DNA of 64,000 nt from Candidatus Eisenbacteria bacterium (GCA_020847735.1 JADLBL010000006.1:1-64000); one strand, 5' to 3'; positions 20,562 to 38,803 are shown, counted from the first letter of the stretch. The notes: a model not told the origin generated them from the letters alone. Numbers and translations are program-made.

Positions 20562-21127
20562 CGTGCACCTCTCCCTGGCGGTTCGAAGCGGGGCCGAGGG
20601 CGCCCCGCGGTCGGAATGAAAAGCGCCCCGAGGGACAGGGCGCGTCGGTGAGCCGTGAAGTTTTCGCCGCGGCATGCGTCGCCCGCCGCCCCGGAACAGG
20701 GCGGACAAGGACGAAACCGGCCGGCTCCGTGGGGGGAGTCGGGCACTCGCATGGGCGGGTCTCCTTCCCCGTCGGAAGGAGTTGCGGCCTCGGCGTGCGC
20801 ACCGGCGGGCGGGTGGCGCGCCTCAATTCAGGCAAGCTGGTCGTCCGGCGCCCGAACTGCGAATCGCGCCCGGGCGACGCCGGAGAGCGGGGGATCGCGG
20901 TGTCGCCGCCTGCTCGATGCGACGATCAGCCTGATGCTTCGCGATGACGACGCCGGAAGTCTGAACTCGGCCTGAACTCGATGCAACGAACTTGTGAGCC
21001 CGAACGCGCCGCACGGCGGTTTCGTTCGCCTTCTTCCGCGGGATGTTTAGTGCGATGCGACTCGGCGAAGAGTGGACACAACATCGCCGGGGCGCCCGGG
21101 GAGGAAGCGCGAAGTCGTTCGGGTCGT
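20562..21127. other. 566-bp leader/intergenic region before the giant gene
   Basis: No convincing gene. Read on the minus strand toward the giant gene, it holds the hairpin CTCCTTCC/GGAAGGAG (20761-20781), a GC-rich hairpin, and a terminator-like stem followed by TTTT at 20623-20643, ending ~60 nt before the start codon. A 9-bp direct repeat, CTGAACTCG, occurs at 20961-20969 and 20972-20980. Short overlapping open frames here lack ribosome-binding sites and protein-like composition. Confidence 0.5.
20618..20643 (-). terminator. Intrinsic terminator or attenuator in the leader of the giant gene
   Basis: On the minus strand, GCGCCC, a 9-nt loop (TGTCCCTCG), then GGGCGC followed directly by TTTTCATT. 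This is one of the few stems in the window with a U-tract. It could end transcripts from the DUF4032 gene or act as an attenuator for the giant gene, whose ATG lies at 20561. Confidence 0.5.
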
Positions 21128-22339
21128 TCAGCTCCCGGACTGGAACCTGGCGACGTAGTCCTCGAGCGCGGCCTGCAACCCGACGTCGCGCTGCGCCCGC
21201 TCGGAGAGGAACCACTTGTGCTCGAGCACCTGGCAGTAGAGCTCCGCCGGGTCCGCGACGTGCTCGAGCAGCGGCGCGAGCGTCCTGAGCGCCGGCTCGT
21301 ACTGCTCGCGCTGCCAGCGGTAGGCCGCGACCGAGAGCGGCACGCTGCGGTCGAGCTCGCGCGAGAGCGTCGCCTTGAGTTCCTTGATCTCGTTCAGCAT
21401 CTGCTCGGCCTGCCGCTCGCCGACCGACAGGCCGGTCAGTCCGTGGAACTGATGCCTGTGGTAGTCGCGATCGGTGACGATGGCGCGAATGCGCAGGCGG
21501 TCCCCGCCTTCGGCCGTCTCGATCTCGACCTCCCCCACCGAGAAGCCGAGCGCGTTGAGCCGCCGGATGCGGTCCTGGATGCGCCAGTGCTCGTCACGCC
21601 CGATCATCTCGGCGCGCGTCGCTTCGGCCCACAGCGCCTCGTACTGCTCGCGGATTCGCGTGCCGGTCTGCTCGGCGTCGAGCGAGCCGGGCACCTCCAT
21701 GAAGGCCTCGAGGTCGGCGAGATCGCCGGCGACGTTTTCCTCGAGGATCATCAGGTCCTGCCGGCGCGCGCCGTCGCCCAGCGCCTCGTGATGCTCGCTC
21801 GTCTCCGCGTCCACGAGGTAGGCCTGCAGCTCGCCCGCGTCGCGGCGAAACAGCGTGTTCGAGAGCGAGCAGTCTCCCCAGTAGAAGCCGGCCAGGTGCA
21901 GGCGCACGAGCAGTCCCGCCATCGCGTCCAGAAGCCGGTCGCGGTAGCGGTGCAGCCCGGGGTTCTGGAACAGCGTGCGGTACGGAAGCGCGCCGTCGAG
22001 GAAGCGGGTGACGAGGACGCCGCCTTCCTCGCCGTCCTCGCGACGCACGCGCGCCCTTCCGACCGGCGTCACCGCCGGCATGCGGCGCTCCTCGAGCAGC
22101 GAGAGCAGCTCGTACTCGCGTTCGGCGACCGAGCCCGGCAGTTCCTTGCACGCGTACACGACCGGCCCGTAGCTCACGAACAGCACCTCGTGGCGCGAAA
22201 GCCCGCGCGGCAGCTGGACGACGCGCCGGCAGTCCTCCGCCCAGCGCGCGAGCGGCAGGTGCCAGGGCAGGTCGAGGAAGTCCGGATGACCCTGCCGGAC
22301 CTGCAGGGACCGGAGCCCGCGCTCAGGGGCCGGGTCCAC
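21128..22339 (-). CDS. DUF4032 domain protein with kinase-like N-terminal domain
   Basis: 403 aa. The N-terminal half resembles lipopolysaccharide-kinase/RIO-like folds: VVYACKELPGSVAEREYELL carries a candidate ATP-binding Lys and Glu, and HLAGFYWGDCSLSNTLFRR looks like a catalytic loop with Asp and Asn, followed by YLVDAETSE as a DFG-like metal-binding motif. The C-terminal half (LSREL... QWQREQYEPAL... LYCQVLEHKWFLSERAQRDVGL) is DUF4032. The start is GTG directly after the TAG stop of the saccharopine-dehydrogenase-like gene (TAGGTG), so the two are translationally coupled. The substrate is unknown; the family occurs widely in actinobacteria and other high-GC groups without an assigned role. 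Confidence 0.8.
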   Translation of the reverse strand: MDPAPERGLRSLQVRQGHPDFLDLPWHLPLARWAEDCRRVVQLPRGLSRHEVLFVSYGPVVYACKELPGSVAEREYELLSLLEERRMPAVTPVGRARVRREDGEEGGVLVTRFLDGALPYRTLFQNPGLHRYRDRLLDAMAGLLVRLHLAGFYWGDCSLSNTLFRRDAGELQAYLVDAETSEHHEALGDGARRQDLMILEENVAGDLADLEAFMEVPGSLDAEQTGTRIREQYEALWAEATRAEMIGRDEHWRIQDRIRRLNALGFSVGEVEIETAEGGDRLRIRAIVTDRDYHRHQFHGLTGLSVGERQAEQMLNEIKELKATLSRELDRSVPLSVAAYRWQREQYEPALRTLAPLLEHVADPAELYCQVLEHKWFLSERAQRDVGLQAALEDYVARFQSGS

Positions 22340-23398
22340 CTACTCCTCGCGCCAGGCCATGCGCACGCCGCGTCCGGCCAGTCCGTCCACGATGAAGCGA
22401 TAGGCGGCCTCGTTCCGCCCGACGTGTTCGAGCGGGTGGACTCCCGGCTCGCGCGCTCCGCCGCGCGCCAGCAGCGCGGCGGTCACGGCGGTCGTCATCG
22501 CGGTCGTTCGCGCCATCGCGGTCATCCCGGTCGCGGCGTCCCAGCGGTCCACCAGCGTCAGCCGCTCGCGCCGTCCGTCCTTCCAGCGCACGCGCACGAC
22601 CAGCGCCACCAGGTCGCGCGGCTCCGGCACGACGCACCGCGCCCGGAACTCCTCGAGAAACCTTCCGCTCTCGACCAGCGGCCGCACCTGGGCCACGTGC
22701 CCGGGCCAGCGAAGCGTGCGCTCGCACATGTTCGGCACGTCGGCGAAGGTCTCGATCGCCGTGCGCAGGCCGTCGGAGACGAACGCCTCCATCTCGCCCA
22801 CTCCGTCCACCTGCACGTTTTCCACCTGCGAGAAGACCGGCACGACCGTCGGTTTCCCGTCGCGCACGAACCGCGCGGGCCGCACGTATTCCTCGAGCAG
22901 GTCGTCGAGCGACCAGGTGACCACGTAGCCGTAGGGCCGGCTCGCGTCCTGCGCGACACCGCCCACGTCCATGACCAGCTCCTCGATCGCGCCCTGGGAC
23001 GCGGCGTGACCGGCCGAGAGGTGCGAGAGCCCGGGCGCGAGGCCGCAGTCGGGCACGATCGCCACGCCGGCGGCGCGCGCCTGCGGATCCAGAGCGAGCG
23101 GGTTCTCGGCCGCGAAGCTCACGTCCACGAGCGGACGCTTCGCGTCGATCGCCGCGCGCATCGTGGCGAAGCCGAAGCGCGAAGGCAGCGCGCCGACCGC
23201 GAGGTCGTAGCCGCTGATCAGCCGGGCCACGGCGAGCGGATCGGAGCAGTCGGTCTCGACCCACGCCAGGTTGCCGGCGTCCGGCAGGAGCGGCGCGCGG
23301 AGGTCGGCGACCTCCACACGCGCCTCGGGAAGCGAGCGCGCCAGGTCCGCGGCGATGACGCGGCCCATCTGGCCCCCGCCCAGGACGACGATCTTCAT
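22340..23398 (-). CDS. Saccharopine dehydrogenase-family NAD(P)-binding protein
   Basis: 352 aa from the ATG at 23398 (GGGAG 9 nt upstream). The N-terminus KIVVLGGGQMGRVIAADLAR is a Rossmann GxGxxG motif. The middle carries family features: DCSDPLAVARLISGYDLAV, KRPLVDVSFAAENPLALDP, and VPDCGLAPGLSHLSAGHAA, which corresponds to the GxxPGxxN-type substrate region. Family members reduce or oxidise saccharopine-like or other amino-acid adducts, or are lysine ketoglutarate reductase relatives; the substrate cannot be read from the sequence. A longer frame to 23437 adds 13 residues without a better RBS. A TAGACT -10-like hexamer lies at 23449-23444. Confidence 0.85.
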   Translation of the reverse strand: MKIVVLGGGQMGRVIAADLARSLPEARVEVADLRAPLLPDAGNLAWVETDCSDPLAVARLISGYDLAVGALPSRFGFATMRAAIDAKRPLVDVSFAAENPLALDPQARAAGVAIVPDCGLAPGLSHLSAGHAASQGAIEELVMDVGGVAQDASRPYGYVVTWSLDDLLEEYVRPARFVRDGKPTVVPVFSQVENVQVDGVGEMEAFVSDGLRTAIETFADVPNMCERTLRWPGHVAQVRPLVESGRFLEEFRARCVVPEPRDLVALVVRVRWKDGRRERLTLVDRWDAATGMTAMARTTAMTTAVTAALLARGGAREPGVHPLEHVGRNEAAYRFIVDGLAGRGVRMAWREE

Positions 23399-23474
23399 GG
23401 CACAAGACTCCCACGGGCCCGAGGCATCGGAACGCACGCGGGTAGTCTAAGGGAGGGCAGCGGCGGCGGCACTC

Positions 23475-23508
23475 GTGCGCCCCGGCGGCGGTGGCCGCGG
23501 GAGCGCAC
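23475..23508 (-). terminator. Hairpin downstream of the NHL-repeat gene
   Basis: GTGCGC...GCGCAC arms, extended by a CCGGCGG/CCGCGGG segment with two mismatches, around a CGGTGG loop. It lies 19-52 bp past the stop of the NHL gene and before the next same-strand gene. No T-tract. Confidence 0.4.
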
Positions 23509-23526
23509 GGAGCGCGGAGTGGCGGA

Positions 23527-26232
23527 TCAGTCGAGCACGACGGTGCGGCGCGTCGCTTCGAGATCTCCCTGCCTCAGCCGCAGAAAGTAGATTCCGGCCG
23601 GCACGGCCCCGCCGCGGGACAGGTCCACGACGTGCCGTCCGGCGCCGAGCGCCCCCACCGGCGTCCTCGAAACCTGCCGCCCCGCCAGGTCCATCAGCTC
23701 GAGCACCGCGGGGGCGGCGGACGGGAGCGCGAACTCCACGTTCAGCCGCCCGCCACGCGCCGGGTTCGGCCGCGATCCGCGCAGCGCGAACTCAAGGCCC
23801 GGTGCGCCCGGATCGTCCACGTCCGTCGTCTGCCCGGGCCCGACGACCGCGAACGGGCTCTGCCTCCCGTTCCGGTCCACGGCCGTCAGCTTGTAGTAGC
23901 CGCCCGGAGCTCCGGTGTCCGCGAATCCGGTGTCGGCCGTCGCCGCGATCCGATTGCCGGGGGTGGGCACGAAATCGGGCGTTGCTCCCCGATGGAGCCG
24001 GAAGGTGGCGAAGTCCGCCGCGGGACTCACGCCCCAGTGCAGGTTCGTGGCGCCGCCCGAAAAGCTCGCGGTGAACGGCGCCGGCGCCGGTGGTGGGAGA
24101 TTGTCCATGGTGTAGCCCTGTCCGGGCGCGGAATCGAGGAACGAGTACGGGTCCGCGGAGGCCGCGCGCACCATGAACGCCGAATACTCGAGCGCTGTGT
24201 TGGTGGCGTCCGCGAGCGTCGGAATCACGACGTTGTACTCGGACTCGCCGTGCGCCGGCACGGTCGCGACCCAGGTCCAGCCGGCCAGCTGGGCGGACGC
24301 GGGCGCCGCGGCGGAACCTGCGCCGGTCGCCCGAGCGGCGGGCCCGGGCAGCGGATCGTTCCGGCGGTAGATCTCATAGCCCGTGATCGTGAGCCCGGAC
24401 CCGGGCGCGTCCGCCGTGGAGCGCAGGAAACGGATCTGCGCCTGCCGGCCCTGGTCGTTCCCCACGTCCGAGACGAGCGCGACGGAGGCGGGCATCGCGT
24501 ACTTGACGACCCGCGAGTTGTTCGTGTCGGCGATGTAGACATTACCCGCCGCGTCGGCGCTGATGCCGATGGGCGCGTTGAGCTGCCCGCCGCCCGCCCC
24601 GAATCCGCCCCACCACGCGAGCGGCGTGCCGCCGCTGCTGAAGCGCACGATGCGATGGTTCGCGTAGTCGGCGACGTACACGTTGCCGATCGCGTCCGCG
24701 GTGACGGATGCCGGCCTGGCGAGCGATCCCGCCGGCGTGCCGGCCGTGGTCCAGGCGCCGAGGAAGCTGCCGTAGTCGGTGAACTGCTGTATCCGGTTGT
24801 TCATCTGGTCCACCACAAACACGCGGCCCGACGCGCTCACCGCCACGCCATAGGGGCCGTTGAACTGCCCGTTCCCGAAGCCCGGAGAACCCCACTTGAG
24901 CGCGAAAGCGCCGAGGGTCGTGAACTTCTGGATACGGGAGTTGCTGTAGTCGGCCACATAGACATAGTTCGCCGCGTCACAGGCGATGCCTGCCGGCGAG
25001 TCGAACTGTCCGTCGCCGTTGCCCGGCGTTCCCCACTGACCCAGGTAGGCGCCATTGCGCGTGAATCTCTGGATCCGATTGTTGTTTCCGTCCACGACGA
25101 AGACGTTTCCCAGGTGGTCCGCGCAGACGCTGCGTGGCCCGTCGAACTGCCCGTTGCCCGTGCCGAAGGCGCCCCACTGGGTGAGATACGCGCCCGTAGC
25201 CGAGAACTTCTGCACGCGGTTATTCTGGGTGTCGGCCACGTAGACATTGCCGGCGTCGTCGGTTCCGACGCCCCACGGGCCGTTCATCTGACCCGCACCG
25301 CCGCCGAAGGCGCCGATCGTCAGTACTGGGAGCGGCGCCCCCTCGGCAACGGGCGCACCCGCGCCGCTGAACTTCTGGACCCGGCGCGCGTCGTAGTCCG
25401 TGACATAGAGGTTTCCGGCCGCGTCGCAGGCCACATCCGATGGCGCGTTGAACTGTCCGTCGCCGTATCCGAAGGAGCCCCACTGGGTCAGAAGCGTGCC
25501 GTCCGCCGCGTACTTGAGCACCCTGGATCCATCGTGGTCGGCGACGTAAACATTTCCCATCGCGTCCAGTCCGAAGCCCCCGTCCGTGAAGTCCCCCGCC
25601 GGCAAGGGCCACGACGCGAGGTACGCGCCCGAAGGGGCGAACCTCACGACCTTCGCGTTCGTGTAGAAGCCGGGATCGAAGACCACGACATTGCCGTCGG
25701 GATCAATCTCGACCTCGCTCGGCCACCACAGGTTGGCGATGCTTCCGAACTGGCTCAGATAGACGCCGCCGCTCGAGAACTTCTGCACCCTGGCGTTGTT
25801 CGAATCCACGACATAGACGTTTCCCGCGCGGTCCACGGCCGCTCCGAGGGGGCCGTTGAATTGCCCGTTGCCGCTGCCGCTGGCGCCCCATTCGAGCAGG
25901 AGGGCGCCGGAACCGGAGTACTTCCGCACGCGGTCTCCGTCGTAGTTCACCGCGATCAGGTTCCCCGCGGGATCCAGGGCGATGCACCGGGAAATGATGT
26001 TCCAGCTCGCGAGCCGGTTGCCCATCCGGTCGTATTTCAGGATGCCGCCTTCGTCGAGGTAGACGTTTCCGAGCGCGTCCACCGCCACGTTCGTGACCGA
26101 GCCGAGTTCGTAGGGTGAGCCCCACTTGAGCTCGAACGTCGGCGTCACCGGGGCGGGGGACGGGCGCGCGGTCACCGGCACGAGCGTGGCGGCGAGCAGC
26201 AGGCCGGCCAGCGGGCAGGCGATGGATCTCAT
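23527..26232 (-). CDS. Secreted NHL-repeat beta-propeller protein with sorting domain
   Basis: 901 aa. The ATG at 26232 has a perfect SD (GGGAGG, 6 nt). Residues 1-~24 are a signal peptide (LAGLLLAATLVPVTARP). Residues ~35-560 carry about eleven NHL repeats of ~45 aa with the pattern GNGQFxxPxGVAxDAAGNVYVADxxNxRVQKFxxxG, enough for one or two beta-propellers. Residues ~570-800 contain FN3-like modules (LTITGYEIYRRNDPLPGP; FATFRLHRGATPDF). The last ~90 residues (RGSRPNPARGGRLNVEFALP to RRTVVLD) are the sorting domain seen in four other proteins here. It lies 112 bp downstream of the CHAT gene on the same strand. Propellers of this type usually bind proteins or ligands; the ligand is unknown. 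Confidence 0.87.
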   Translation of the reverse strand: MRSIACPLAGLLLAATLVPVTARPSPAPVTPTFELKWGSPYELGSVTNVAVDALGNVYLDEGGILKYDRMGNRLASWNIISRCIALDPAGNLIAVNYDGDRVRKYSGSGALLLEWGASGSGNGQFNGPLGAAVDRAGNVYVVDSNNARVQKFSSGGVYLSQFGSIANLWWPSEVEIDPDGNVVVFDPGFYTNAKVVRFAPSGAYLASWPLPAGDFTDGGFGLDAMGNVYVADHDGSRVLKYAADGTLLTQWGSFGYGDGQFNAPSDVACDAAGNLYVTDYDARRVQKFSGAGAPVAEGAPLPVLTIGAFGGGAGQMNGPWGVGTDDAGNVYVADTQNNRVQKFSATGAYLTQWGAFGTGNGQFDGPRSVCADHLGNVFVVDGNNNRIQRFTRNGAYLGQWGTPGNGDGQFDSPAGIACDAANYVYVADYSNSRIQKFTTLGAFALKWGSPGFGNGQFNGPYGVAVSASGRVFVVDQMNNRIQQFTDYGSFLGAWTTAGTPAGSLARPASVTADAIGNVYVADYANHRIVRFSSGGTPLAWWGGFGAGGGQLNAPIGISADAAGNVYIADTNNSRVVKYAMPASVALVSDVGNDQGRQAQIRFLRSTADAPGSGLTITGYEIYRRNDPLPGPAARATGAGSAAAPASAQLAGWTWVATVPAHGESEYNVVIPTLADATNTALEYSAFMVRAASADPYSFLDSAPGQGYTMDNLPPPAPAPFTASFSGGATNLHWGVSPAADFATFRLHRGATPDFVPTPGNRIAATADTGFADTGAPGGYYKLTAVDRNGRQSPFAVVGPGQTTDVDDPGAPGLEFALRGSRPNPARGGRLNVEFALPSAAPAVLELMDLAGRQVSRTPVGALGAGRHVVDLSRGGAVPAGIYFLRLRQGDLEATRRTVVLD

Positions 26233-26344
26233 CGAATGCCTCCCTCATCGAGGCGCCCCCGCGGAACGATTCCCCGGGAGCCCTGCATGAAGGGGAACCC
26301 GGGAGGTGTCCGCGAATCACAGCCGGAAGCGCCGTGCCGGAACC

Positions 26345-29068
26345 CTACCGGGAGGGTCCGCCGTCCGACCACGCTTTCGCCCGCGCCCTGTGCGGCCCAC
26401 GCGGGATCAGCCGGACCGTCGTCTCCGGGTCGCCGATCAGGACGAAGCCCGCCCAGTCGCGCAGGCGAGAATGCCGCCGCGAACGCGCGAGGCGCTGCGC
26501 GTCGCCCAGCGCATCACCCGCGGTCCGACCCTGCGCGAGCTCCGCATAGAAGTCGCGGACCATCTCGGCGGTGGCTTCGTCGCCCACCGGCCAGAGGGAG
26601 GCGATCACCGCACTGGACCCCGAAGCCAGCCACGCGGCGGCGAGCCCGGGCATGGCCTCGGATCCGAGCGCGCCGCCCGCGGATGTACAGCCCGTGAGCA
26701 CGCACAATCGGGCCGTCCGCCCGAGCCCGGCAATGCGCGCAGCCGTCAGGTAGGCCTCCTCGTTCCGGCCGCGGCCGAGCAGAAAGCCGGCCCGCCAGGG
26801 CGCTTCCGGCGAACCCCGGACGTGCGAGGCGATGTGCAGCACCTCGCGCGGGCCGAGATGCGCGAGCATCGCGTCGAGCGGTCGCCGGCCGTCGTTCTCG
26901 CGCGATTCCGCATCGGGGAAGGTTCGGATCAGCCAGCGGATCTCGCGCTCGACTCCGGCGAGCTGCCGGCCCTGTCCATCGGTCGAGCGGCTCAGCGCCA
27001 GCAGCGCGTGCGATTTCGTTTGGCGTGGCGCGGCCTCGCTCCGCGTCCGCGCCAGCAGCGTGGCCGACGCGATGATCGCCCAACGCCTCCGGACCGACAG
27101 CGGATCGCTCTCGCCCGGAATGCGGAGCATCCCGATCGGGTACTGGGCGGAACGGCCCGTCGCGAGGAGCGCGGTTCGCGAGGAACGCAGCAGATCCGCG
27201 ACTTTTCCGAACAGCTGGTCGCCGAGTGCGGCGGAGGCGGTCTCGACTAGCGCTTCGTCGGGATCCTCGGCCGCGAGAAGGTCGCGGAAGCGACGCAGGC
27301 CGGGCGACAGGCGCCTGCCTCCTGCCAGACCCACGGCACGGAGGGAATCGCGGGTCACCGCGAACAGAAACGACGTGTCCGGCGCCATGTAGAGGTCGAG
27401 AAGGATCTCGCCCGGACGCAGCACGCGGCGCTGCAGCACCGCCAGCGTCACACGCGGCGTGGCGCGTGTCCGCTCGCCGCCGCTGAGGGCATCCTCGAGC
27501 GTCCGTGCGCGAAACGTTTGCAGGGTCGAGAACGTGGACGCCGTGCGGTCCGGCGCCCTTCCGCCCGATGCAGGATCCAGCAGGAGCGCCGCGTACTGGG
27601 CGAAGAGGGACGCCGCCGCGCCGCCGAAGGCCTCGCGCCAGGAGCTTTCGCCGGGCAGGATACGGTTGCGCTCCCAGGCGGAGGTCGCGGCCCGCAGGTG
27701 CGCGAGCGCGCTGTCCCTGCGCCCCAGCGCCACGAACGCCCGGGCAAGTTCCCGCTCCCCCATGATGGCGGACGCCCCGATCGTCCCGCGGAACCGCTCC
27801 CGGGTGGCCAGAGCCTCCCGAAGCGGCGGAATCGCCGTCGCGGGATCTCCGGCATCGGTCCGCAACGCTCCGAGGGCGAGCAGGAGGCCGGCCCGGACGG
27901 CGGTCTCCATGCGTGCACCCCGCTGCGCGAGCGCGGGCTCGATCAAGGCGATGCCCTCCTTCGGCCTGCCCGCGGAGGCACGCGCGCGGGCGAGCGCCAC
28001 GACGGCATCCGCCCAGGTGCTCGATCTCACGGAATCGCGCATCGCGACCACCCGGCCGGCGAGCGAATCCGCATCGGCAAGTCGATCGGCCTCGATCCTC
28101 AGCAGGGCGAGGCTGACGAGCGCCTTGTCGAGCACGTCACGCGCACCCGCCCGACCGGCCGCGGTGACCACGGTGTCGAGCAGCGCGCCCGCCTCGTCCA
28201 CGTGTCCGATGCTGCTCAGGCATTGGGCGACGTTGGCGAGCGACATCAGCTCGTTGGCTCGATTTCCCGCTCGGCGCTGCAGCGCCGCGGCCTCCCGATA
28301 GTGCGGGATGGCCAGCGAAGGGTCGCCGTAACCGAACTCGAGGGCGCCGAGATCGTTCAACGCGTCGGCCGCGTTGCGCAGGTCTCCGGCCGCGCGCGAC
28401 TCCGTCAGCACCCGCTCGTACTCGAGGCGGGCGGCGGCCGGCCGGCCCTGCTGGAGCAACGCGTTCGCGAGCCCCGCCCGGGCGGTACGGGCCAGGTGCG
28501 CCTCCCCCGGCTCCGTGATCCGCTCGATCGCGATCCGGTAACCGCGCTCCGCCTCGCGCGCGCGGCCATCCCGCATCGCGATGAACGCGAGGCCCACCCG
28601 CGCGTAGCCCTCCATGACGCCCAGCCGGGCCAGACGCGCGAGGCGCAGCACCTCGACGTAACTGGAACCCGCCTCGGAGAATTGCTGCCGCGAGAGACTC
28701 GAGTAGGCGATCGTTCGCAGGGCGATGCACCAGAGGAGCGTGTCGCGCGAAGCGCGCAACCTCGGCAGCCAGCGCCGCGACTCGGCCTGCGACTCACCGA
28801 AGCTGCCGTCGAAGAACGCGCGCATTCCGGCACGGCGGATCTCCGCCGCCATCTCGAGATCGGTGTTCCCGGTCCTTCGGGCGACGGCGATCAGCGAGTC
28901 CATGTACGCCAGGTAGGGGGTGCGACCGCGAAACGCCAGGGAGTCGGCGCGGGCGAACTCGCGCCGGAACCGCACGGACGGCGTGGCGGCGGGCGCCGCG
29001 GAGGTCATCACCACCGGGAGCGCGGCGAATACGATGACGGCGATTCGTGTGCGCGTGAGTGTCGTCAT
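26345..29068 (-). CDS. Exported TPR-CHAT caspase-like protease
   Basis: 907 aa. The N-terminus (TLTRTRIAVIVFAALPVVMTSAAPA) is a signal peptide or anchor, so the protein probably works in the periplasm or attached to the membrane. Residues ~40-480 are TPR-like helical repeats (AERGYRIAIERITEPGEAHLA, ALNDLGALEFGYGDPSLAIPHYREA). Residues ~640-890 form a CHAT domain: EVLHIASHVRG gives the catalytic His (~749), and CVLTGCTSAGG gives the catalytic Cys (~794). IASLWPVGDEATAEMVRDFY and AGFVLIGDPE are typical CHAT C-terminal motifs. Both catalytic residues are intact. It lies 31 bp downstream of an anti-sigma-like gene and an ECF sigma gene, probably in one operon. The substrate is unknown; the membrane anti-sigma factor is an attractive candidate by inference. 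Confidence 0.9.
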   Translation of the reverse strand: MTTLTRTRIAVIVFAALPVVMTSAAPAATPSVRFRREFARADSLAFRGRTPYLAYMDSLIAVARRTGNTDLEMAAEIRRAGMRAFFDGSFGESQAESRRWLPRLRASRDTLLWCIALRTIAYSSLSRQQFSEAGSSYVEVLRLARLARLGVMEGYARVGLAFIAMRDGRAREAERGYRIAIERITEPGEAHLARTARAGLANALLQQGRPAAARLEYERVLTESRAAGDLRNAADALNDLGALEFGYGDPSLAIPHYREAAALQRRAGNRANELMSLANVAQCLSSIGHVDEAGALLDTVVTAAGRAGARDVLDKALVSLALLRIEADRLADADSLAGRVVAMRDSVRSSTWADAVVALARARASAGRPKEGIALIEPALAQRGARMETAVRAGLLLALGALRTDAGDPATAIPPLREALATRERFRGTIGASAIMGERELARAFVALGRRDSALAHLRAATSAWERNRILPGESSWREAFGGAAASLFAQYAALLLDPASGGRAPDRTASTFSTLQTFRARTLEDALSGGERTRATPRVTLAVLQRRVLRPGEILLDLYMAPDTSFLFAVTRDSLRAVGLAGGRRLSPGLRRFRDLLAAEDPDEALVETASAALGDQLFGKVADLLRSSRTALLATGRSAQYPIGMLRIPGESDPLSVRRRWAIIASATLLARTRSEAAPRQTKSHALLALSRSTDGQGRQLAGVEREIRWLIRTFPDAESRENDGRRPLDAMLAHLGPREVLHIASHVRGSPEAPWRAGFLLGRGRNEEAYLTAARIAGLGRTARLCVLTGCTSAGGALGSEAMPGLAAAWLASGSSAVIASLWPVGDEATAEMVRDFYAELAQGRTAGDALGDAQRLARSRRHSRLRDWAGFVLIGDPETTVRLIPRGPHRARAKAWSDGGPSR

Positions 29069-29099
29069 GGGCCTGGCGGCGACGTGCGCCGCCGCGGCC

Positions 29100-29804
29100 T
29101 CAGCGTAACCGAATCGCGCGTGCGGGTGTCGTCCTGATGACTGATCGCGCCCGCCATGCCTCCACCTCGACGGACATCCGCGCGTCGGGTGGCAGGGCCG
29201 CGGGCAACGAATCGCGGGGCACCGTCAGCCGGGTCGCCGTACCCGCCTCGAACCGGGCGATCGGCAGCAGCGTCGCGTCGAGGAACACGACCCGATACGA
29301 CTCGGCGCCCGGCAGCGGCGGCCACTCGAGCTCGAAGCCGTCGCCGGCCTCGCGCACGGTCCGCAGTTCGAAACCTGACGGGACCTCGACGCTGCGCAGC
29401 CTGTCGCCGCGGAATCCCGGGCGCACCCACCAGCCGATGCCCGCGGCCACCGCGACCAGCGCGAACGTGAACGCCCAGCGCCCGGCGGGCGCCCGCAACC
29501 AGTCGAACAGCCCGCGTGCCGACTCCCGAGGGAACCGACGCCCCTGTCCGCCATGGCCGGCCATTCCGGAGGCCGGTTCGCGCCGCGCTTCGAGCGCCGC
29601 GTGCAGCCTGCGTTCGAGTTCGTGGCGCGTGGAACCCAGTTCGCCCGCGGACTCCTCCGGCCGGCGTTCCCCCGTGAAGTCGGACAGCATCGCCTTGAGA
29701 GCAGAGAACTCCGGGGTCCCCTCCGCGCGGATCCGCTCGGGATCCGACTCCGGCAGGGCCAGCAGTCGCGCGAACTCGGCGGGCGAATACCCGGATGGCC
29801 TCAC
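29100..29804 (-). CDS. Putative single-pass membrane anti-sigma factor
   Basis: 234 aa from a GTG that overlaps the sigma-factor stop as GTGA, with a strong GGGGAGGG upstream; the longer ATG-started frame simply reads through the sigma gene. Residues 1-~105 are hydrophilic and helical (SPAEFARLLALPESDPERIR... RHELERRLHAALEARRE) and likely cytoplasmic. Residues ~110-127 are one membrane helix (WAFTFALVAVAAGIGWW). Residues ~140-234 are an FN3-like periplasmic domain (FELEWPPLPGAESYRVVFLD). No HxxxCxxC zinc motif is present, so it is not a ZAS-type anti-sigma factor. The anti-sigma role is inferred from topology, size and coupling to the sigma gene; I do not recognise a named family. Confidence 0.65.
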   Translation of the reverse strand: MRPSGYSPAEFARLLALPESDPERIRAEGTPEFSALKAMLSDFTGERRPEESAGELGSTRHELERRLHAALEARREPASGMAGHGGQGRRFPRESARGLFDWLRAPAGRWAFTFALVAVAAGIGWWVRPGFRGDRLRSVEVPSGFELRTVREAGDGFELEWPPLPGAESYRVVFLDATLLPIARFEAGTATRLTVPRDSLPAALPPDARMSVEVEAWRARSVIRTTPARAIRLR

Positions 29805-30394
29805 GTGCGTCCCTCCCCTTCGGCCGGGCGGAGCGCCGCCCGCAGCTTTCGCCGCGCCGTCTGCAGCAGGCCCCGGGCGCCGGTCGCGCTCTCGAGCCCG
29901 AGGATTTCGGTGATGTCCGCGACGCTCATGCCTTCGTGCGCGCGCAGCCAGATCGCGGTGCGCTCGCGTTCGTCGAGCGCCGAGTCCATGGCCGCCTCGA
30001 CCCGGCGCAGGCTCTCGGCCGACTCGTGGTCGTCCGCCGGCCCCGCGTCGCCGGCGATCAGCGTGTCCGCGTCGATCTCCGGATCCCGCAGCAGCGGGCG
30101 GCTCCTCGCGACCGTCAGGCAGCGGTGGTGCACGATGACGAACAGCCATGCCGGGAAGCGGCCCCGCGGCTCGTAGCGCGGCAGCGCCTCGAGCATTCTC
30201 AGCATGGCGTCCTGCGCCACGTCGAGCGCTTCGTCACGGTCACGCACCACGCGGCGCACCCAGCGAAGCACGCGCCCCGACCAGCGCGAGATCAGCGCGT
30301 CCACGGCCCGGCGGCCGGCGCGCCCGTTCGGATCCGCCAGGTACTCCCGGATCAGCGTCTCGTCGTCGCGATCGTCCGGAGGCCGCGGGGTCAT
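29801..30394 (-). CDS. ECF-type RNA polymerase sigma factor
   Basis: 197 aa from the ATG at 30394; the much longer open frame upstream is antisense to pnt genes and not coding. Region sigma-2 spans ~35-100, with DEALDVAQDAMLRMLEALPR and FPAWLFVIVHHRCLTVARS. Region sigma-4 spans ~138-190, with LDERERTAIWLRAHEGMSV, ADITEILGLESATGARGLL and ARRKLRAAL. There is no SD, but TACGCT lies 7 nt before the ATG, suggesting a leaderless transcript. It is the first gene of an apparent operon with the membrane anti-sigma-like gene (GTGA overlap), the TPR-CHAT gene and probably the NHL gene. Target promoters cannot be read from the window. Confidence 0.9.
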   Translation of the reverse strand: MTPRPPDDRDDETLIREYLADPNGRAGRRAVDALISRWSGRVLRWVRRVVRDRDEALDVAQDAMLRMLEALPRYEPRGRFPAWLFVIVHHRCLTVARSRPLLRDPEIDADTLIAGDAGPADDHESAESLRRVEAAMDSALDERERTAIWLRAHEGMSVADITEILGLESATGARGLLQTARRKLRAALRPAEGEGRT

Positions 30395-30832
30395 GCACCG
30401 CAGCGTATCCGATGCCCGCGGGCGCACAAGCGCCCGTTCCCGGAGGCGCGGATGGTGTCGACCGGGCAGGCCGTCGAACGCCCGGCCCGCCTGGCCGGCA
30501 TTGGAGCGGACGAGGATGTGCGCGTCCCCCGACGCGTCCAGCCAACACCGCGCTCGCCTTCCTTTCTGTCCCCCGCTGTACTGCGCCCCGCATGCGGCCC
30601 TCCACCAGGCCCCCGAAGGGGGCTCACTGCTTGATGAACGCAGCTGGCGGGCCGTAGTCACAGCCGCGGCGCGCACGCGCACCAGGCGACGCCGTCGCAG
30701 CGACTTCCCCCGGCGCCGACAAACGAAGTAGATTCCCCGATTGGTCCGACGAGAGTCGCCTCCGGAGGCGATTCCGTGGTCGGTGGGGCCCGCCCCACGA
30801 CACGTCACGCAACCTTCTTCCCAGGGTGCCGC
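30395..30832. other. 438-bp divergent intergenic region between sigma and pntAA genes
   Basis: No convincing gene. It contains a strong small hairpin, GCCCCC-GAA-GGGGGC (30609-30623), a TAGATT -10-like hexamer at about 30729-30734 on the plus strand, and two palindromes close to pntAA, listed separately. Its base composition is slightly less GC-rich around 30715-30750. Confidence 0.5.
30756..30798 (+). promoter_or_regulatory. Two palindromes in the pntAA 5' region
   Basis: TCGCCTCCGGAGGCGA (30756-30771) is a perfect 16-bp palindrome. GTGGGGC-CC-GCCCCAC (30783-30798) is a perfect interrupted palindrome 11 bp further on. Both lie between a -10-like TAGATT and the pntAA start, where an operator or a leader hairpin pair would sit. 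The cognate protein is unknown. Confidence 0.35.
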
Positions 30833-31981
30833 ATGCGCATCGCCGTTCCCAAGGAAATCACGCCGCGCGAGACGCGCGTGGCGCTCGTGCCCGAGACCGT
30901 GGCCCGCCTCGTCAAGGCCGGCCAGGAGGTCGTCGTCGAGAGCGGAGCGGGCGAGGCCGCGGGCTTCACCGACGACGCCTACCGCCAGGCCGGCGCCAAC
31001 CTCGCGCCCAGCGCGCCGAGCGCCTGCGAAGGCGCGAACATCGTCCTCAAGGTGCACGAGCCGCGGCAGAACGCCGCCATCGGCCGGCACGAAGCCGACC
31101 TCGTGCCCCAGGGGGCGGTGTTCGTCTCGTTCCTCGGCCGCGACCGGAACTCGGAAGCCGTCCAGAAGCTGGCGGCCCGCAAGGTCACCGCCTTCTCGAT
31201 GGAGATGATCCCGCGCACCTCGCGCGCGCAGTCCATGGACGCGCTGTCGTCCATGGCCGGCGTCTCCGGCTACAAGGCGGCGCTCTGGGGCGCCGGCGCG
31301 CTCGGCAAGTTCTTCCCCCTCAAGATGACCGCCGCGGGCACGATCGCGCCCGCGAACGTCTTCGTGCTCGGCTGCGGAGTCGCGGGGCTCGAAGCCCTCG
31401 CCACCTGCCGCAAGCTGGGCGCCGTGGTCGAGGCGTACGACGTGCGCCCGGCTGTGAAGGAGGAGGTCGAGAGCCTGGGCGGCAGGTTCGTGCAGATCGA
31501 ACTGGCCCAGAAGGACGTCGTCGCCGCGGGCGGCTACGCCAAGGAGCTGTCCGCCGAGGACCAGCAGCGCGTCAAGGAGCTGCTCGCGACGCACGTCGCC
31601 AAGTCGGACGTCGTCATCACGACGGCGGCGATCCCGGGCCGCAAGGCGCCGGTGCTCGTCACCGACGCCATGGTCCGGGGCATGCGGCCCGGTTCGGTCG
31701 TCGTGGACATCGCCGCCGAGACGGGCGGCAACTGCGAGGCGACCGTGCCCGGGGAGACGGTCGTCAAGTACGGCGTCACGATCATGGGCCCGCTCAACGT
31801 GCCCGCCACGCTGCCGTTCCACGCCAGCCAGATGTACTCGCGCAACCTGCATTCGCTGCTCAAGCTGATGATCGACAAGGAAGGCAGGCTCCGCCTCGAT
31901 TTCGAGGACGACATCCTTCGCGACGCGTGCATCACGCGGGCGGCGGGCGAACCCGCGGCGGCCGCCGGAAAGGCGTCATGA
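30833..31981 (+). CDS. pntAA: NAD(P) transhydrogenase subunit alpha part 1
   Basis: 382 aa from the ATG at 30833 (RIAVPKEITPRETRVALVPE), the standard length for the split alpha subunit. This is the NAD(H)-binding domain I of proton-translocating transhydrogenase. It has the alanine-dehydrogenase/PNT N-terminal domain (~1-140), the Rossmann motif VFVLGCGVAGLEALATCRKLG (~178-198), the segment AYDVRPAVKEEVESLGG, and the mobile-loop region near KYGVTIMGPLNVPATLPFHAS. With PntAB and PntB it transfers hydride from NADH to NADP+ driven by the proton gradient. The three genes overlap by 4 bp each (ATGA, GTGA). A longer frame from 30776 adds 19 residues unlike the family. Confidence 0.95.
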   Translation: MRIAVPKEITPRETRVALVPETVARLVKAGQEVVVESGAGEAAGFTDDAYRQAGANLAPSAPSACEGANIVLKVHEPRQNAAIGRHEADLVPQGAVFVSFLGRDRNSEAVQKLAARKVTAFSMEMIPRTSRAQSMDALSSMAGVSGYKAALWGAGALGKFFPLKMTAAGTIAPANVFVLGCGVAGLEALATCRKLGAVVEAYDVRPAVKEEVESLGGRFVQIELAQKDVVAAGGYAKELSAEDQQRVKELLATHVAKSDVVITTAAIPGRKAPVLVTDAMVRGMRPGSVVVDIAAETGGNCEATVPGETVVKYGVTIMGPLNVPATLPFHASQMYSRNLHSLLKLMIDKEGRLRLDFEDDILRDACITRAAGEPAAAAGKAS

Positions 31982-32286
31982 ACGAAGCCACCCTGATTCT
32001 CTACGCCATCTACATCTTCGTGCTCGCGGTGTTCGTCGGCTTCGAGGTCATCTCGAAGGTTCCGGTCCAGCTGCACACGCCGCTCATGTCGGGCACCAAC
32101 GCCATCCACGGCATCGTCATGCTGGGCGGCATGCTCGTGCTCGCGGAGGCGGCCACCCCGCTGCTGACCTGGCTGGGTTTCGCCGCCGTCGTGCTCGGCG
32201 CCATGAACCTGTTCGGCGGATTCGTGGTCACGGATCGCATGCTCGAGATGTTCAAGACGAAGAAGCCGGCCGGAGGCAAGTCGTGA
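31978..32286 (+). CDS. pntAB: NAD(P) transhydrogenase subunit alpha part 2
   Basis: 102 aa, overlapping pntAA by ATGA. It has three to four hydrophobic segments (LILYAIYIFVLAVFVGFEVI; AIHGIVMLGGMLVL; LLTWLGFAAVVLGAMNLFGG), and the phrase VPVQLHTPLMSGTNAIHGIV is the hallmark of the membrane segment of the alpha subunit. It forms part of the proton channel (domain II) with PntB. It ends in a short basic tail, KTKKPAGGKS. Confidence 0.94.
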   Translation: MNEATLILYAIYIFVLAVFVGFEVISKVPVQLHTPLMSGTNAIHGIVMLGGMLVLAEAATPLLTWLGFAAVVLGAMNLFGGFVVTDRMLEMFKTKKPAGGKS

Positions 32287-33710
32287 GCCCGAAGGTTCTC
32301 TCCGAGTTCGCCTACCTCACCTCCGCCGTCCTGTTCATCATCGGGCTCAAGTTCCTGAGCCACCCGCGGCGCGCGCGCAACGGCAACCTGCTCGCGGGAA
32401 TCGGCATGGCCTTCGCCGTGGCCGCGTCGTTCATCTTCATCTGGTGGGGCGGGCTGCTGACGGGGCACCCGGGCACGGGCACGCTCATCATCGTCGCGAT
32501 CCTGCTCGGCGGGACCCTCGGTTCGCTCGCGGCGCGGCGGGTCGCCATGACCGAGATGCCGCAGATGGTCGCCCTGCTGAACGGCTGCGGGGGCGGCGCG
32601 GCGGCGCTCATCTCGACGGTCGAGTTCGCGAACTTCATGAGCGCGAAGTCCGCCGGGCAGCCGGTGGACCCGCTCGGATTCGGCGCGACGCTGTTCGGCG
32701 GCGTCATCGGCTCGCTGTCGTTCTGGGGCTCGCTGGTGGCGTTCGGCAAGCTCAGCGGCTTCGCCGAGAAGGCCATCAACTCGCCGCTCCAGCGCATCGC
32801 CACCGTGCTGGTGACGCTGGCGCTGATCGGCACCATCGTCGTGAGCCTGGCCGCCCACGACGCCACGCCGTTCTACGCGCTGCTGGCCGTCTCCCTGCTG
32901 TTCTCCGTTCTCATGGTGCTGCCGATCGGCGGCGCCGACATGCCGGTGGTCATCTCGCTGCTCAACTCCTTCACCGGCCTCGCCGTCGCGGCGACGGGCT
33001 TCTCGCTGCAGCAGCCGGCGCTGATCATCAGCGGAACGCTGGTCGGCGCCTCCGGCACGCTGCTGACGCTGCTGATGTGCAAGGCCATGAACCGTTCGAT
33101 CATCAACGTCCTGTTCGCGGGCGTCGGAGGCGGCGCCACGGCGTCCACGGGCGCCGCCGGCAGGAGCGGGCCGGCGAAGACGACCCGCGAGATCAGCGCC
33201 GAGGATCTGGCCATGCTGTGCACCAACGTGCAGAGCGTGATCGTCATCCCCGGCTACGGTATGGCCGTGGCGCAGGCCCAGCACGTCACGCGCGAACTGG
33301 GCGACCTGCTCGCGGCCCGCGGCGTGGACGTGAAGTACGCGGTCCACCCGGTCGCCGGCCGCATGCCCGGTCACATGAACGTGCTGCTCGCCGAGGCCAA
33401 CGTGCCGTACGAGCAGCTCTTCGACCTCGAGCAGATCAACTCCGAGTTCGAGCGCTGCGACGTGGCGCTGGTCATCGGCGCCAACGACGTCGTCAACCCG
33501 GCCGCGCGCTACGACAAGTCGAGCCCGATCTACGGCATGCCCATCCTCGACGCGGACAAGGCGCGCAACATCATCGTCGTGAAGCGCAGCCTGAATCCGG
33601 GCTTCGCGGGCATTGACAACGAGATCTACTACAACCCGAAGACGTACATGTTCTTCGGCGACGCCAAGAACGCCATCGGCAAGCTGGTCGAGGCGATCAA
33701 GGCGCAGTAG
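32283..33710 (+). CDS. pntB: NAD(P) transhydrogenase subunit beta
   Basis: 475 aa, GTG start overlapping pntAB as GTGA; typical length is ~460-480. The N-terminal ~270 residues hold eight or nine membrane helices (VAASFIFIWWGGLLTG; MPQMVALLNGCGGGAAALIS; GADMPVVISLLNSFTGLAVA). The C-terminal ~180 residues form the NADP(H)-binding domain III, with VIVIPGYGMAVAQAQH, VKYAVHPVAGRMPGHMNVLL, VIGANDVVNPAAR and PILDADKARNIIVVKRS. Domain III exchanges hydride with PntAA, while the membrane part couples this to proton flow, supplying NADPH. All key nucleotide-binding motifs are intact. Confidence 0.96.
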   Translation: MSPKVLSEFAYLTSAVLFIIGLKFLSHPRRARNGNLLAGIGMAFAVAASFIFIWWGGLLTGHPGTGTLIIVAILLGGTLGSLAARRVAMTEMPQMVALLNGCGGGAAALISTVEFANFMSAKSAGQPVDPLGFGATLFGGVIGSLSFWGSLVAFGKLSGFAEKAINSPLQRIATVLVTLALIGTIVVSLAAHDATPFYALLAVSLLFSVLMVLPIGGADMPVVISLLNSFTGLAVAATGFSLQQPALIISGTLVGASGTLLTLLMCKAMNRSIINVLFAGVGGGATASTGAAGRSGPAKTTREISAEDLAMLCTNVQSVIVIPGYGMAVAQAQHVTRELGDLLAARGVDVKYAVHPVAGRMPGHMNVLLAEANVPYEQLFDLEQINSEFERCDVALVIGANDVVNPAARYDKSSPIYGMPILDADKARNIIVVKRSLNPGFAGIDNEIYYNPKTYMFFGDAKNAIGKLVEAIKAQ

Positions 33711-33715
33711 GGCGC

Positions 33716-33778
33716 GCCCGGCCGTCGCGTGTCGTCCGGCGCCTCCGGGTGCGTTTCGCGCCGGTGGTCCGGCCGGGC
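33716..33778. terminator. Nested inverted repeats between pntB and the convergent gene
   Basis: Outer arms GCCCGGCCG (33716-33724) and CGGCCGGGC (33770-33778), with inner arms CCGGCGC (33736-33742) and GCGCCGG (33758-33764). It fills the 73-bp gap between two convergent 3' ends and is probably a bidirectional terminator; no T-run. Confidence 0.5.
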
Positions 33779-33783
33779 CCGGC

Positions 33784-34131
33784 TCAGCGCGCGCCGCGCG
33801 CGTCGCGCTCGGCGCGCGCGGCGACGCCGTACAGGATGCGCGCGTTGAGCAGCGCCGCGGCCGCCGCGAGCAGGAAGCCAAGCGCGCGCAGGACCCCGGC
33901 CGGCAGGTGCGGGGCGAGGGCCTGCGCGACCAGCGCGAGTCCCGCCGACCACGGCGCGGTCAGCACCGAGAGCGCGACCGAGCCCAGGCCGCGCCGCCCG
34001 CTCGCGAGCTCGTAGAAGAGAAGCACGAAGGCCAGCGCGACCAGCGTGAGGTAGATCGCCGCGGCGCGCCGCCCCCACGAGCTGTGGGCCGGCGCGGGCG
34101 TGAGGGTGTCGGGTTCGGGGGGCAGGCTCAT
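33784..34131 (-). CDS. Small membrane protein of unknown function
   Basis: 115 aa. The ATG overlaps the stop of the Nudix gene as ATGA, which supports the start. After a proline-rich N-terminus (SLPPEPDTLTPAPAHSSWG) there are about three hydrophobic segments (AAIYLTLVALAFVLLFYELA; SVALSVLTAPWSAGLALVAQ; LPAGVLRALGFLLAAAAALL). I recognise no family. It is the last gene of a four-gene overlapping operon with the site-2 protease, phosphodiester glycosidase and Nudix genes, so a membrane or envelope role is likely, but no function can be assigned. Confidence 0.6.
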   Translation of the reverse strand: MSLPPEPDTLTPAPAHSSWGRRAAAIYLTLVALAFVLLFYELASGRRGLGSVALSVLTAPWSAGLALVAQALAPHLPAGVLRALGFLLAAAAALLNARILYGVAARAERDARGAR

Positions 34132-34805
34132 GCCTTCCGCACGCTAGCGGAGCGCGCGCGATCGCGCGACCGCGCGGCGGCGCGGCGATGCGCTCGCGCG
34201 CCGGCGGATCGCGCCGGGCGCGTCACCGGGTCGCCCGCGGGGCGGTCGCGCCGTCGCGCCGATCCGCCGCGCACACCGGCGGTCCGCCAGCGCCGCAGCG
34301 CGGCGAAGAGCGCCGGCATGTGCGCCCACGAGAAGCGCCGGCGCAGCGCCGCCAGTCGCGTCATCGGCACCCACTCGGCGCTCGCGGCGTCGTCGGCCGC
34401 CACGGGTTCACCGCGACGCCACTCGCCCACCCAGTACCAGTTCATGGTCGGGAAGCGCCCGAATCCCTTCAGCGCGTACTCGTCCCAGTGAAACGACAGC
34501 GGCTCGATCGGCCCCAGGGTCAGTCCCGTCTCCTCGCGCAGCTCTCGTCTCGCCGCCGCCTCGAGGCTTTCGCCCGACTCGACGAAGCCGCCGGGCACGT
34601 CGAGCCGACCGACCCGCGGCGGGTGCGCCCGTCGCAGCAGGAGCACCGCGTCGCCCCGGACGACGAGCAGCCCCGCGCACGGCCGCGGGTAGTCGTAGAT
34701 CAGGAATCCGCAGCGCGGGCAGCCGAACCGGCGCGGCCGGCTCGAGGTCGCGGGCCGGCGCCTCAGCGGCCGCCCGCAGCGCGCGCACGGAAAGCCGGCC
34801 TTCAC
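34128..34805 (-). CDS. Nudix hydrolase with N-terminal zinc ribbon
   Basis: 225 aa from a GTG overlapping the upstream stop as GTGA. Cys7, Cys10, Cys29 and Cys32 (CARC and CPRC) form a zinc ribbon. The Nudix box is complete, GFVESGESLEAAARRELREETGL at ~73-95, fitting GX5EX7REUXEEXGU. This layout (zinc ribbon, then Nudix) resembles the NudC/NADH-pyrophosphatase-like and ADP-ribose/nucleotide-sugar hydrolase group; the SQPWPFPxS motif of true NudC is absent. It probably hydrolyses a nucleoside diphosphate linked to another moiety. The last ~45 residues are an unusual Arg/Ala-rich tail (RRDRPAGDPVTRPARSAGAR...) beyond the fold, possibly nucleic-acid-binding or simply a high-GC extension. Confidence 0.87.
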   Translation of the reverse strand: MKAGFPCARCGRPLRRRPATSSRPRRFGCPRCGFLIYDYPRPCAGLLVVRGDAVLLLRRAHPPRVGRLDVPGGFVESGESLEAAARRELREETGLTLGPIEPLSFHWDEYALKGFGRFPTMNWYWVGEWRRGEPVAADDAASAEWVPMTRLAALRRRFSWAHMPALFAALRRWRTAGVRGGSARRRDRPAGDPVTRPARSAGARAHRRAAARSRDRARSASVRKA

Positions 34806-35629
34806 GGCGCCTCGACGGTGATCACGGCGGGCAGCGGCACCTGCGCCCCCGGCGCGCCGGCTTCGCCCTGCTTGGGCCAGCGCCCGAAGCTCGCATAGTG
34901 GTACGAGCCGCTCGCGACGACGAGCTGCGCTTCGAGGCCGCCGTCCATGCTCATGGCGTGCGTCAGGCGCAGCGGCGACTTCATGAGCAGCTCGGCGAAT
35001 CCCGCGAGCGTGTACGCGCCTTCGGTCACCAGCACCACGACGTGCCCCTCCGGGTCCTCGGCCACCGCGGTGCGGTTCGCGATGCGGGTCGTGCGCTTGA
35101 CGCGCACGCCGCCTCCGCGATCGAACAGCATGAAGGACTGCGCCACGTCGCTCCACCCGCTCTCGCGGGAGAGCGGCGAGGTCGCGAGGTCCAGCACGCG
35201 CGCATCGCGCGGGCCCTTGCCTCCCGAGGCGACCAGCGCGGCCTGAAAGCCCGGATGCACGCGGGCGGAAATGGTGTCGCCACCGCTCACGTACAGCCCC
35301 ATGTAGCGCAGGTCGGGGTAGAACTGCCCGGCGTTGAAGACGGCCAGCGCCCCGGTGGTGCGCTGCCAGTCGAGCACGCCCGGCGGCTTCGCGCGGCCGA
35401 GCTGCGACCAGTGCCGCGCGCGCACCCGCACGAGGCGGGGGTCGAGCCGCAGCGCCGCGACCGTCGCGGAACCCATCTGGCAGTACGGGCTGCCGGTGAA
35501 GGTCGCGAACTCCGCCCCGGGCTGGAGCGTCCGCCAGTGCGGGGCGCGGCCGTTCTGCCACAACACCCAGGCCGCCGCGATCGCCACGACCGGCAGGACC
35601 CAGCGGGCGTGCAGCGAACGCCGCATCAC
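34802..35629 (-). CDS. Phosphodiester glycosidase-family protein (NAGPA-like)
   Basis: 275 aa. Candidate starts are a GTG at 35629 (GTGA overlap with the S2P gene) and an ATG at 35626. A single N-terminal membrane helix (WVLPVVAIAAAWVLWQNG) anchors or exports it. Family motifs are present: FNAGQFYPDLRYMGLYVSGG, the segment VVVLVTEGAYTLAGFAELLM, and MSMDGGLEAQLVV, the conserved DGG segment. This family (formerly DUF2233) includes the enzyme that uncovers mannose-6-phosphate, as well as bacterial proteins that cleave GlcNAc or glycan phosphodiesters in the envelope. The substrate here is unknown. Its position between a site-2 protease and a Nudix gene suggests an envelope function. Confidence 0.82.
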   Translation of the reverse strand: MMRRSLHARWVLPVVAIAAAWVLWQNGRAPHWRTLQPGAEFATFTGSPYCQMGSATVAALRLDPRLVRVRARHWSQLGRAKPPGVLDWQRTTGALAVFNAGQFYPDLRYMGLYVSGGDTISARVHPGFQAALVASGGKGPRDARVLDLATSPLSRESGWSDVAQSFMLFDRGGGVRVKRTTRIANRTAVAEDPEGHVVVLVTEGAYTLAGFAELLMKSPLRLTHAMSMDGGLEAQLVVASGSYHYASFGRWPKQGEAGAPGAQVPLPAVITVEAP

Positions 35630-36714: not shown

Positions 36715-36819
36715 GGATCGAGCGTCCTCCGGTGAATGGCGATCCGGAGTCTCGCACAGCCGCGGGCTCCCGCTCCACTGGGCGGGACCCGGGAGCGCGC
36801 GGCGCGAGGCTGCGACCGG

Positions 36820-38666: not shown

Positions 38667-38803
38667 CGTCGGCTCCGGGGCTGTCGGACCCGGCCCTCCC
38701 CCTCCGGGGAGCGGCGGCGAGGTCCATGCAGGAGCGGGTATCGGCCCGGGCGCCGAAAGGCTGAACCGCGGAAACGGCCGACCGGCATGCGGGCGGCGGT
38801 CCT

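Follow-up and report, generated by a model that had tools for sequence, protein, structure and literature searches.

In a 64,000-nt stretch of DNA from Candidatus Eisenbacteria bacterium (GCA_020847735.1 JADLBL010000006.1:1-64000), which was analysed at its full length and is called the window here, three adjoining genes on the minus strand encode an extracytoplasmic function (ECF) sigma factor, a predicted membrane anti-sigma factor and a predicted exported TPR-CHAT protease. This trio is considered as a candidate proteolytic signalling module. All coordinates are window positions. Structural features are from AlphaFold2 (AF2) models, with the predicted local distance difference test (pLDDT) as local score.

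29801..30394, minus strand: ECF sigma factor, 197 aa, regions 2 and 4 (Pfam Sigma70_r2 1.6e-15, Sigma70_r4_2 5.4e-5)
29100..29804, minus strand: predicted single-pass anti-sigma factor, 234 aa, of a family that adjoins the sigma gene in nearly every relative
29583..29783, minus strand: predicted cytoplasmic four-helix anti-sigma domain, residues 8-74 (AF2 helices 8-16, 22-28, 31-44 and 53-74)
29427..29489, minus strand: anti-sigma transmembrane (TM) helix, residues 106-126 (AF2 helix 106-126; hydropathy of relatives)
29388..29420, minus strand: disordered periplasmic linker with the conserved Arg, residues 129-139 (pLDDT < 50)
29394..29396, minus strand: codon of Arg137, proposed R↓G/S cleavage site (arrow, proposed cut; LR↓S in the window), invariant (27/27) in alignment A2
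29109..29360, minus strand: periplasmic fibronectin type III (FN3)-like beta domain, residues 149-232 (AF2 strands; Foldseek FN3 matches)
26345..29068, minus strand: predicted exported TPR-CHAT caspase-like protease, 907 aa (Pfam CHAT 7.7e-39, TPR_12 4.2e-16)
28985..29068, minus strand: signal peptide of the CHAT protein, approx. residues 1-28 (sequence; relatives scored too)
27482..28966, minus strand: TPR superhelix, approx. residues 35-529 (helical hairpins in the AF2 model; Pfam TPR)
26429..27226, minus strand: CHAT protease domain, residues 615-880 (Pfam PF12770)
26822..26824, minus strand: catalytic His749, invariant in 19 aligned triad CHATs
26687..26689, minus strand: catalytic Cys794, invariant in 19 aligned triad CHATs

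The anti-sigma reading frame starts with a GTG inside the sigma stop (GTGA overlap), and the CHAT frame begins 31 bp after the anti-sigma gene. An earlier reading of the DNA, made without database searches and called the sequence-only reading here, had described this overlap and a TPR-CHAT protein with an intact His/Cys pair and a signal peptide; the coordinates, Pfam, the alignment and the N-terminus bear it out. Judged from its sequence, the product of 30394-29801 is an ECF (group 4) sigma factor of about 200 aa with regions 2 and 4 only. Its Sigma70_r2 match scored 57 bits against a cut-off of 24, and region 4 stayed just under the Pfam cut-off with 23.2 bits.

The 234-aa protein is probably the anti-sigma factor that holds this sigma factor, as genetic linkage and the helical N-terminal domain suggest. 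In its AF2 model, four N-terminal helices are followed by the TM helix, the disordered linker and a beta domain whose Foldseek matches are FN3 domains. A2, an alignment of 27 family members, has C(x)nDPRRxHxxxCPRC as its N-terminal consensus, an arrangement as in zinc anti-sigma (ZAS) domains. Most aligned relatives keep the motif, but in the window protein the zinc ligands H/C/C are replaced by R/T/F, so that the H-x3-C-x2-C ZAS signature is absent; the ligands are also lost in its closest relatives (both L062 copies and L092). Pfam gave no match for any of the 27 members, including the window protein. A second alignment, A4, comprised soluble or differently built anti-sigmas from other CHAT loci. 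Its profile matched RslA (1.8e-6) and RsiW (0.0026) in the PDB, and weakly DdvA and ChrR, while hhalign of A2 against A4 gave a short match over HxxxCxxC only (E 9e-5, prob 59).

The third protein belongs to the CHAT family, with 134.3 bits for PF12770 (cut-off 24) and with His and Cys intact. The catalytic His was kept in 132 of 133 and the Cys in 134 of 134 CHAT matches readable at those columns. The N-terminus of the window protein is signal-peptide-like (MTTLTRTRIAVIVFAALPVVMTSAAPA). Its AF2 model (pLDDT 86; predicted template modelling score 0.81) matched separase best in Foldseek, and further matches were DdvA (8RW5, 8ROT) and Csx29/Craspase.

Conservation of the gene set and its compartments

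The window genome (27 contigs, 3.66 Mb) contains 6 CHAT genes and 21 Sigma70_r2 genes, and five of the six CHAT genes adjoin a Sigma70_r2 gene where approx. 0.4 would be expected. When 59 relatives were searched with the CHAT protein and with the anti-sigma protein, both searches landed at the same places. Many Eisenbacteria genomes contain homologous trios, with two different gene orders among them. In six-frame searches of the collected loci with profiles, sigma was almost always followed by anti-sigma, with the CHAT gene either downstream of the pair (window, L062, L076, L078, L096) or upstream of it (L064, L065, L067-L071, L073, L075, L077, L079-L082, L084, L090).

A scan of genome contigs with a 5-sequence alignment yielded 80 further CHAT loci from Krumholzibacteriia, Latescibacterota, Acidobacteriota, Aminicenantes, Gemmatimonadetes, Bacteroidota, Ignavibacteriales and one cyanobacterium. 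Adjacency was scored with an own sigma profile, as PF04542 misses some divergent trio sigmas. In 50 of these 80 loci, picked by similarity to triad CHATs, a sigma gene lay ≤3.8 kb from the CHAT domain, compared to about 8-10% expected; more than 4 kb away from CHAT, the same loci contained 3 sigma genes in 272 kb (0.11 per 10 kb). The orientation was convergent in 22 of the 50 and CHAT before sigma in another 22, followed by sigma before CHAT (4) and divergent (2). Acidobacteriota show the order CHAT, sigma, anti-sigma and Bacteroidota the convergent one. Acidobacteriota, Bacteroidota, Aminicenantes and Latescibacterota have sets of sigma, TM anti-sigma and exported CHAT in which the periplasmic domains are unrelated. 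As the same gene set is kept in differing orders, a functional link is indicated, and the association of sigma, anti-sigma and CHAT is real and beyond chance. The sequence-only reading would have fallen with a lack of conservation in relatives, and the recurrence of the trio in Eisenbacteria and other phyla removes that objection.

When the upstream regions of 21 modules were searched for an autoregulatory ECF promoter, no dyad exceeded shuffles. Five modules (L076, L078, L095, L097 and L100) have the string GTGATTC within approx. 60 bp ahead of their first gene; it is a possible sigma promoter element.

Among 77 sigma-near CHATs with a readable N-terminus, simple hydropathy scores gave a signal peptide in 51, a C-terminal TM helix in 41 and both in 30; the window protein has the signal peptide only. 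A cytoplasmic CHAT domain, which would have spoken against the sequence-only reading, is not what hydropathy indicates at this locus. Exported CHATs pair with single-TM anti-sigmas wherever both are readable (mis-called partners in L062, L077, L080, L103 and L127 were checked by hand). CHATs with neither signal peptide nor TM helix were found in seven Eisenbacteria-class loci (L106, L107, L110, L115, L117, L118, L119), and in 7/7 of them the gene that separates sigma from CHAT has a soluble product; the single TM call for the L117 partner is a hydrophobic stretch that was read as part of its zinc domain. By descent these loci do not count as independent, although the seven include two or more distinct kinds of soluble anti-sigma. 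Most of these soluble anti-sigmas are of the zinc type; their C-terminal beta domain has weak Pfam matches of a carboxypeptidase-regulatory-like kind, and L115 carries two cytosolic sets of sigma, anti-sigma and CHAT in tandem. In the window genome, L102 (G000:C15, 1610-7144) encodes an ECF sigma factor, a TM Ser/Thr-kinase-like protein in the place of the anti-sigma and an exported CHAT, and by its predicted products it is a kinase variant of the trio.

A conserved arginine ahead of the folded domain

R137 and W161 are the only invariant columns of A2 (n=27). Across the family, the Arg lies 6-18 residues past the membrane and is followed by G in 17 members, S in 4 and A, E and D in 2 each. 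The CHAT-linked anti-sigmas of Eisenbacteria, Bacteroidota and Acidobacteriota share [VIL]-x-R-[G/S] within a disordered segment ahead of a folded C-terminal domain. In those of Bacteroidota, which have a periplasmic TPR domain, one linker column holds R in 17/18 and K in 1/18 with G/S next in 16, and Arg makes up just 2.1% of their periplasmic residues; in flavobacteria such as Maribacter polysiphoniae, the site is IT-R↓S. Acidobacteriota anti-sigmas, with another beta-rich domain, have R in 14/16 and G/S next in 12; both exceptions have R-S within three columns. The Latescibacterota anti-sigma reads LVLRGDA. Three of the soluble anti-sigmas carry GIRGAG, GVRGLA and GIRSTG, respectively, and those of the L106 type share an invariant RRA; in each case, the C-terminal domain follows. 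Four CHAT-linked anti-sigmas that were met later (L252, L254, L255, L262) all contain R-G/S, namely, ISRSAA, LQRGDG, TLRSGD and AMRGND.

R[GS] was more frequent in CHAT-linked anti-sigmas than in sigma-linked single-TM proteins without CHAT, with 16/18 vs 4/14 in Bacteroidota (p=7e-4) and 15/16 vs 4/12 in Acidobacteriota (p=1e-3); as the controls are mixed families, this enrichment is supportive only. A conserved flexible Arg-Gly/Ser that faces the compartment of the protease, ahead of unrelated folded domains, is the trace expected of a common protease. The simplest candidate for the protease that uses this site is the co-encoded CHAT protein, which shares that compartment.

Proposed mechanism and competing explanations

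From the gene set, its topology and its conserved residues, we infer sigma binding, cleavage, the position and Arg specificity of the cut, a signal, and the downstream steps with their order. The trio is moderately probable to be a signalling module in which the CHAT protein is a dedicated site-1 protease that cuts the anti-sigma factor after the conserved Arg and frees the sigma factor. The cytoplasmic helical domain of the anti-sigma factor would tether the ECF sigma at the inner membrane, and the TPR superhelix would be the obvious sensor to receive the activating signal. The exported TPR-CHAT protein, as dedicated site-1 protease, would then cut the disordered periplasmic linker after R137 (LR↓S) and release the FN3 domain; this linker ahead of the FN3 domain, rather than FN3 itself, is the likely cut site. 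The short periplasmic stub, which is the usual substrate of RseP-type proteases, would subsequently be cut by an RseP-like site-2 protease and cleared, and the sigma factor would be freed. A gene for an RseP-like M50 protease is present in the window genome (C1:60937-62178). The proteolytic model is favoured by the almost invariant catalytic His/Cys pair, by the matching compartments and by the shared Arg. In the cytosolic branch, the cut may detach the C-terminal part from the zinc domain, similar to the action of Csx29 on Csx30 (PMC10028731).

Several points weigh against this account. The Arg is also kept in six sigma/anti-sigma pairs from this family that have no adjoining CHAT (L092-L095, L097, L100), which leaves two options, CHATs that work in trans or a different protease for this site. 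In Aminicenantes, R stands at the aligned column in only 5/7. R[GS] is frequent in GC-rich proteins, so that the weight rests on column conservation. The 50 out of 80 adjacent loci are no rate for all CHATs owing to the way the sample was picked, the export calls come from simple scores, and Csx29 is only distantly related to the window CHAT. An assignment of an Arg-specific S1 pocket from a separase alignment was discarded, as the acidic residue of separase is unconserved in the CHAT alignment.

It is rather unlikely that the CHAT protein is instead one of the sigma factor's outputs, merely co-regulated with it as an executioner or processing protease of the periplasm, and that some other site-1 protease cuts at the conserved Arg. 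Autoregulated ECF operons often include their own targets, and both the Arg-bearing pairs without CHAT and the frequent position of CHAT upstream of, or convergent to, sigma would suit this explanation. However, convergent and split orders persist across phyla, CHATs and their anti-sigmas occupy matching compartments, the Arg site is commoner in CHAT-linked anti-sigmas than in the remaining sigma-linked TM proteins, and a common ECF-type promoter was not found upstream of the 21 modules.

Somewhat less probable is a structural Arg, in a membrane-proximal or domain-capping role, with CHAT possibly cleaving elsewhere. The same R-G/S precedes FN3, TPR and another beta domain, which have no common fold, its region is disordered in the window model, and an Arg outside the membrane runs counter to the positive-inside rule. 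These observations speak against a structural role, although the Arg is found just ahead of the folded domain in each family and, in Acidobacteriota, tracks the domain rather than the membrane (TM-to-R distance 19-115).

The CHAT protein could also act as a sensor without proteolysis, by binding to the periplasmic domain and altering its conformation. The TPR superhelix as a binding scaffold fits such a role, as does DdvA (8ROT/8RW5), which joins CHAT and anti-sigma in one named protein, but with a nearly invariant catalytic His/Cys and the conserved Arg in a disordered linker, it is improbable. Chance adjacency of common families has a negligible probability even with 21 Sigma70_r2 genes in the window genome, since it is refuted by the conservation in 50/80 loci (about 8-10% expected) and 5/6 in the own genome.

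Cleavage by CHAT may extend to a signalling class of several phyla, in which an exported caspase/separase-like site-1 protease replaces DegS/PrsW and a shared [VIL]-x-R↓[G/S] site precedes interchangeable periplasmic domains, while a cytosolic branch with soluble anti-sigmas follows the same logic; the chances for and against this wider reading appear balanced. Many CHAT proteins exist in bacteria and few have a known substrate, and for many of them the model predicts both substrate and scissile bond. If true, it would reveal an overlooked site-1 protease in several poorly studied bacterial phyla.

Neighbouring genes and known systems

One further gene follows the trio on the same strand:

23527..26232, minus strand: exported-looking NHL propeller (Pfam NHL 6.4e-56) with a FlgD_ig / Por_Secre_tail-like end (weak Pfam)

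The sequence-only reading had listed this gene after the CHAT gene. It is present and looks exported, but it has no homologue beside related trios, and the sole match in the collected loci was weak and distant. It was rejected as a part of the module and is probably a mere neighbour. An M50 site-2-protease-like gene (35626-36714, minus strand) lies about 5 kb from the trio. The window also contains another ECF sigma gene, followed by a very short overlapping open reading frame (47204-48129, plus strand), and an open frame of 3799 aa (9162-20561, minus strand), apparently for a giant secreted protein.

Separase, the top structural match, shares the CHAT-like clan CD fold and cuts after Arg. Unlike the window protein, it is eukaryotic and unexported and has cohesin as substrate. 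The RseA-DegS-RseP and RsiW-PrsW-RasP systems resemble the proposed module in their membrane anti-sigma and in a periplasmic site-1 cut followed by a site-2 cut. Their site-1 protease is a PDZ serine protease or PrsW rather than a co-encoded clan CD protease, and they are not known to have an invariant Arg site.

In ECF54 gene contexts, CHAT-domain proteins are conserved near the ECF sigma and proteolytic control was proposed (PMC8999054), as it is here. Those sigmas lack an anti-sigma, whereas the window trio has a TM anti-sigma with a conserved site. In Myxococcus xanthus, the ECF sigma partner of DdvA turns active once DdvA is inactivated (PMC4374960). DdvA-DdvS (PDB 8ROT, 8RW5, 8RLZ) is similar in that DdvA is a TM anti-sigma with a CHAT domain that keeps the His/Cys positions. 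It differs in uniting anti-sigma and CHAT in one polypeptide of 991 aa, while the window has two separate genes and is thus not of the DdvA type. With this CHAT-bearing TM anti-sigma already known, the claim of a new system needs qualifying, and the exported split set moreover recurs beyond the window locus. A literature search found nothing on an exported CHAT encoded apart from its anti-sigma, the distribution of such sets among phyla, the matching of compartments or the Arg site, although work on DdvA structures and ECF reclassification may cover part of it.

In type III-E CRISPR, Csx29 cleaves Csx30, which inhibits an ECF sigma (PMC10028731). This system shares with the window trio a TPR-CHAT protease, an ECF sigma inhibitor and an ECF sigma, and in the structural comparison of the window CHAT, Csx29 ranked among the top matches. 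As the sequence-only reading had held, the trio stands apart from CRISPR: no RAMP-type effector was found in the window genome, which sets it outside the type III-E CASP-sigma systems, and no short-spaced direct repeats were found in window positions 20000-40000. Csx29 is activated by an RNA-guided effector with no export described, whereas the window CHAT is exported, and the window inhibitor, in contrast to Csx30, is a membrane protein of another family. If the proposed mechanism is true, RNA-activated Csx29 would be a special case of a wider control of ECF sigmas by caspase-like proteases.

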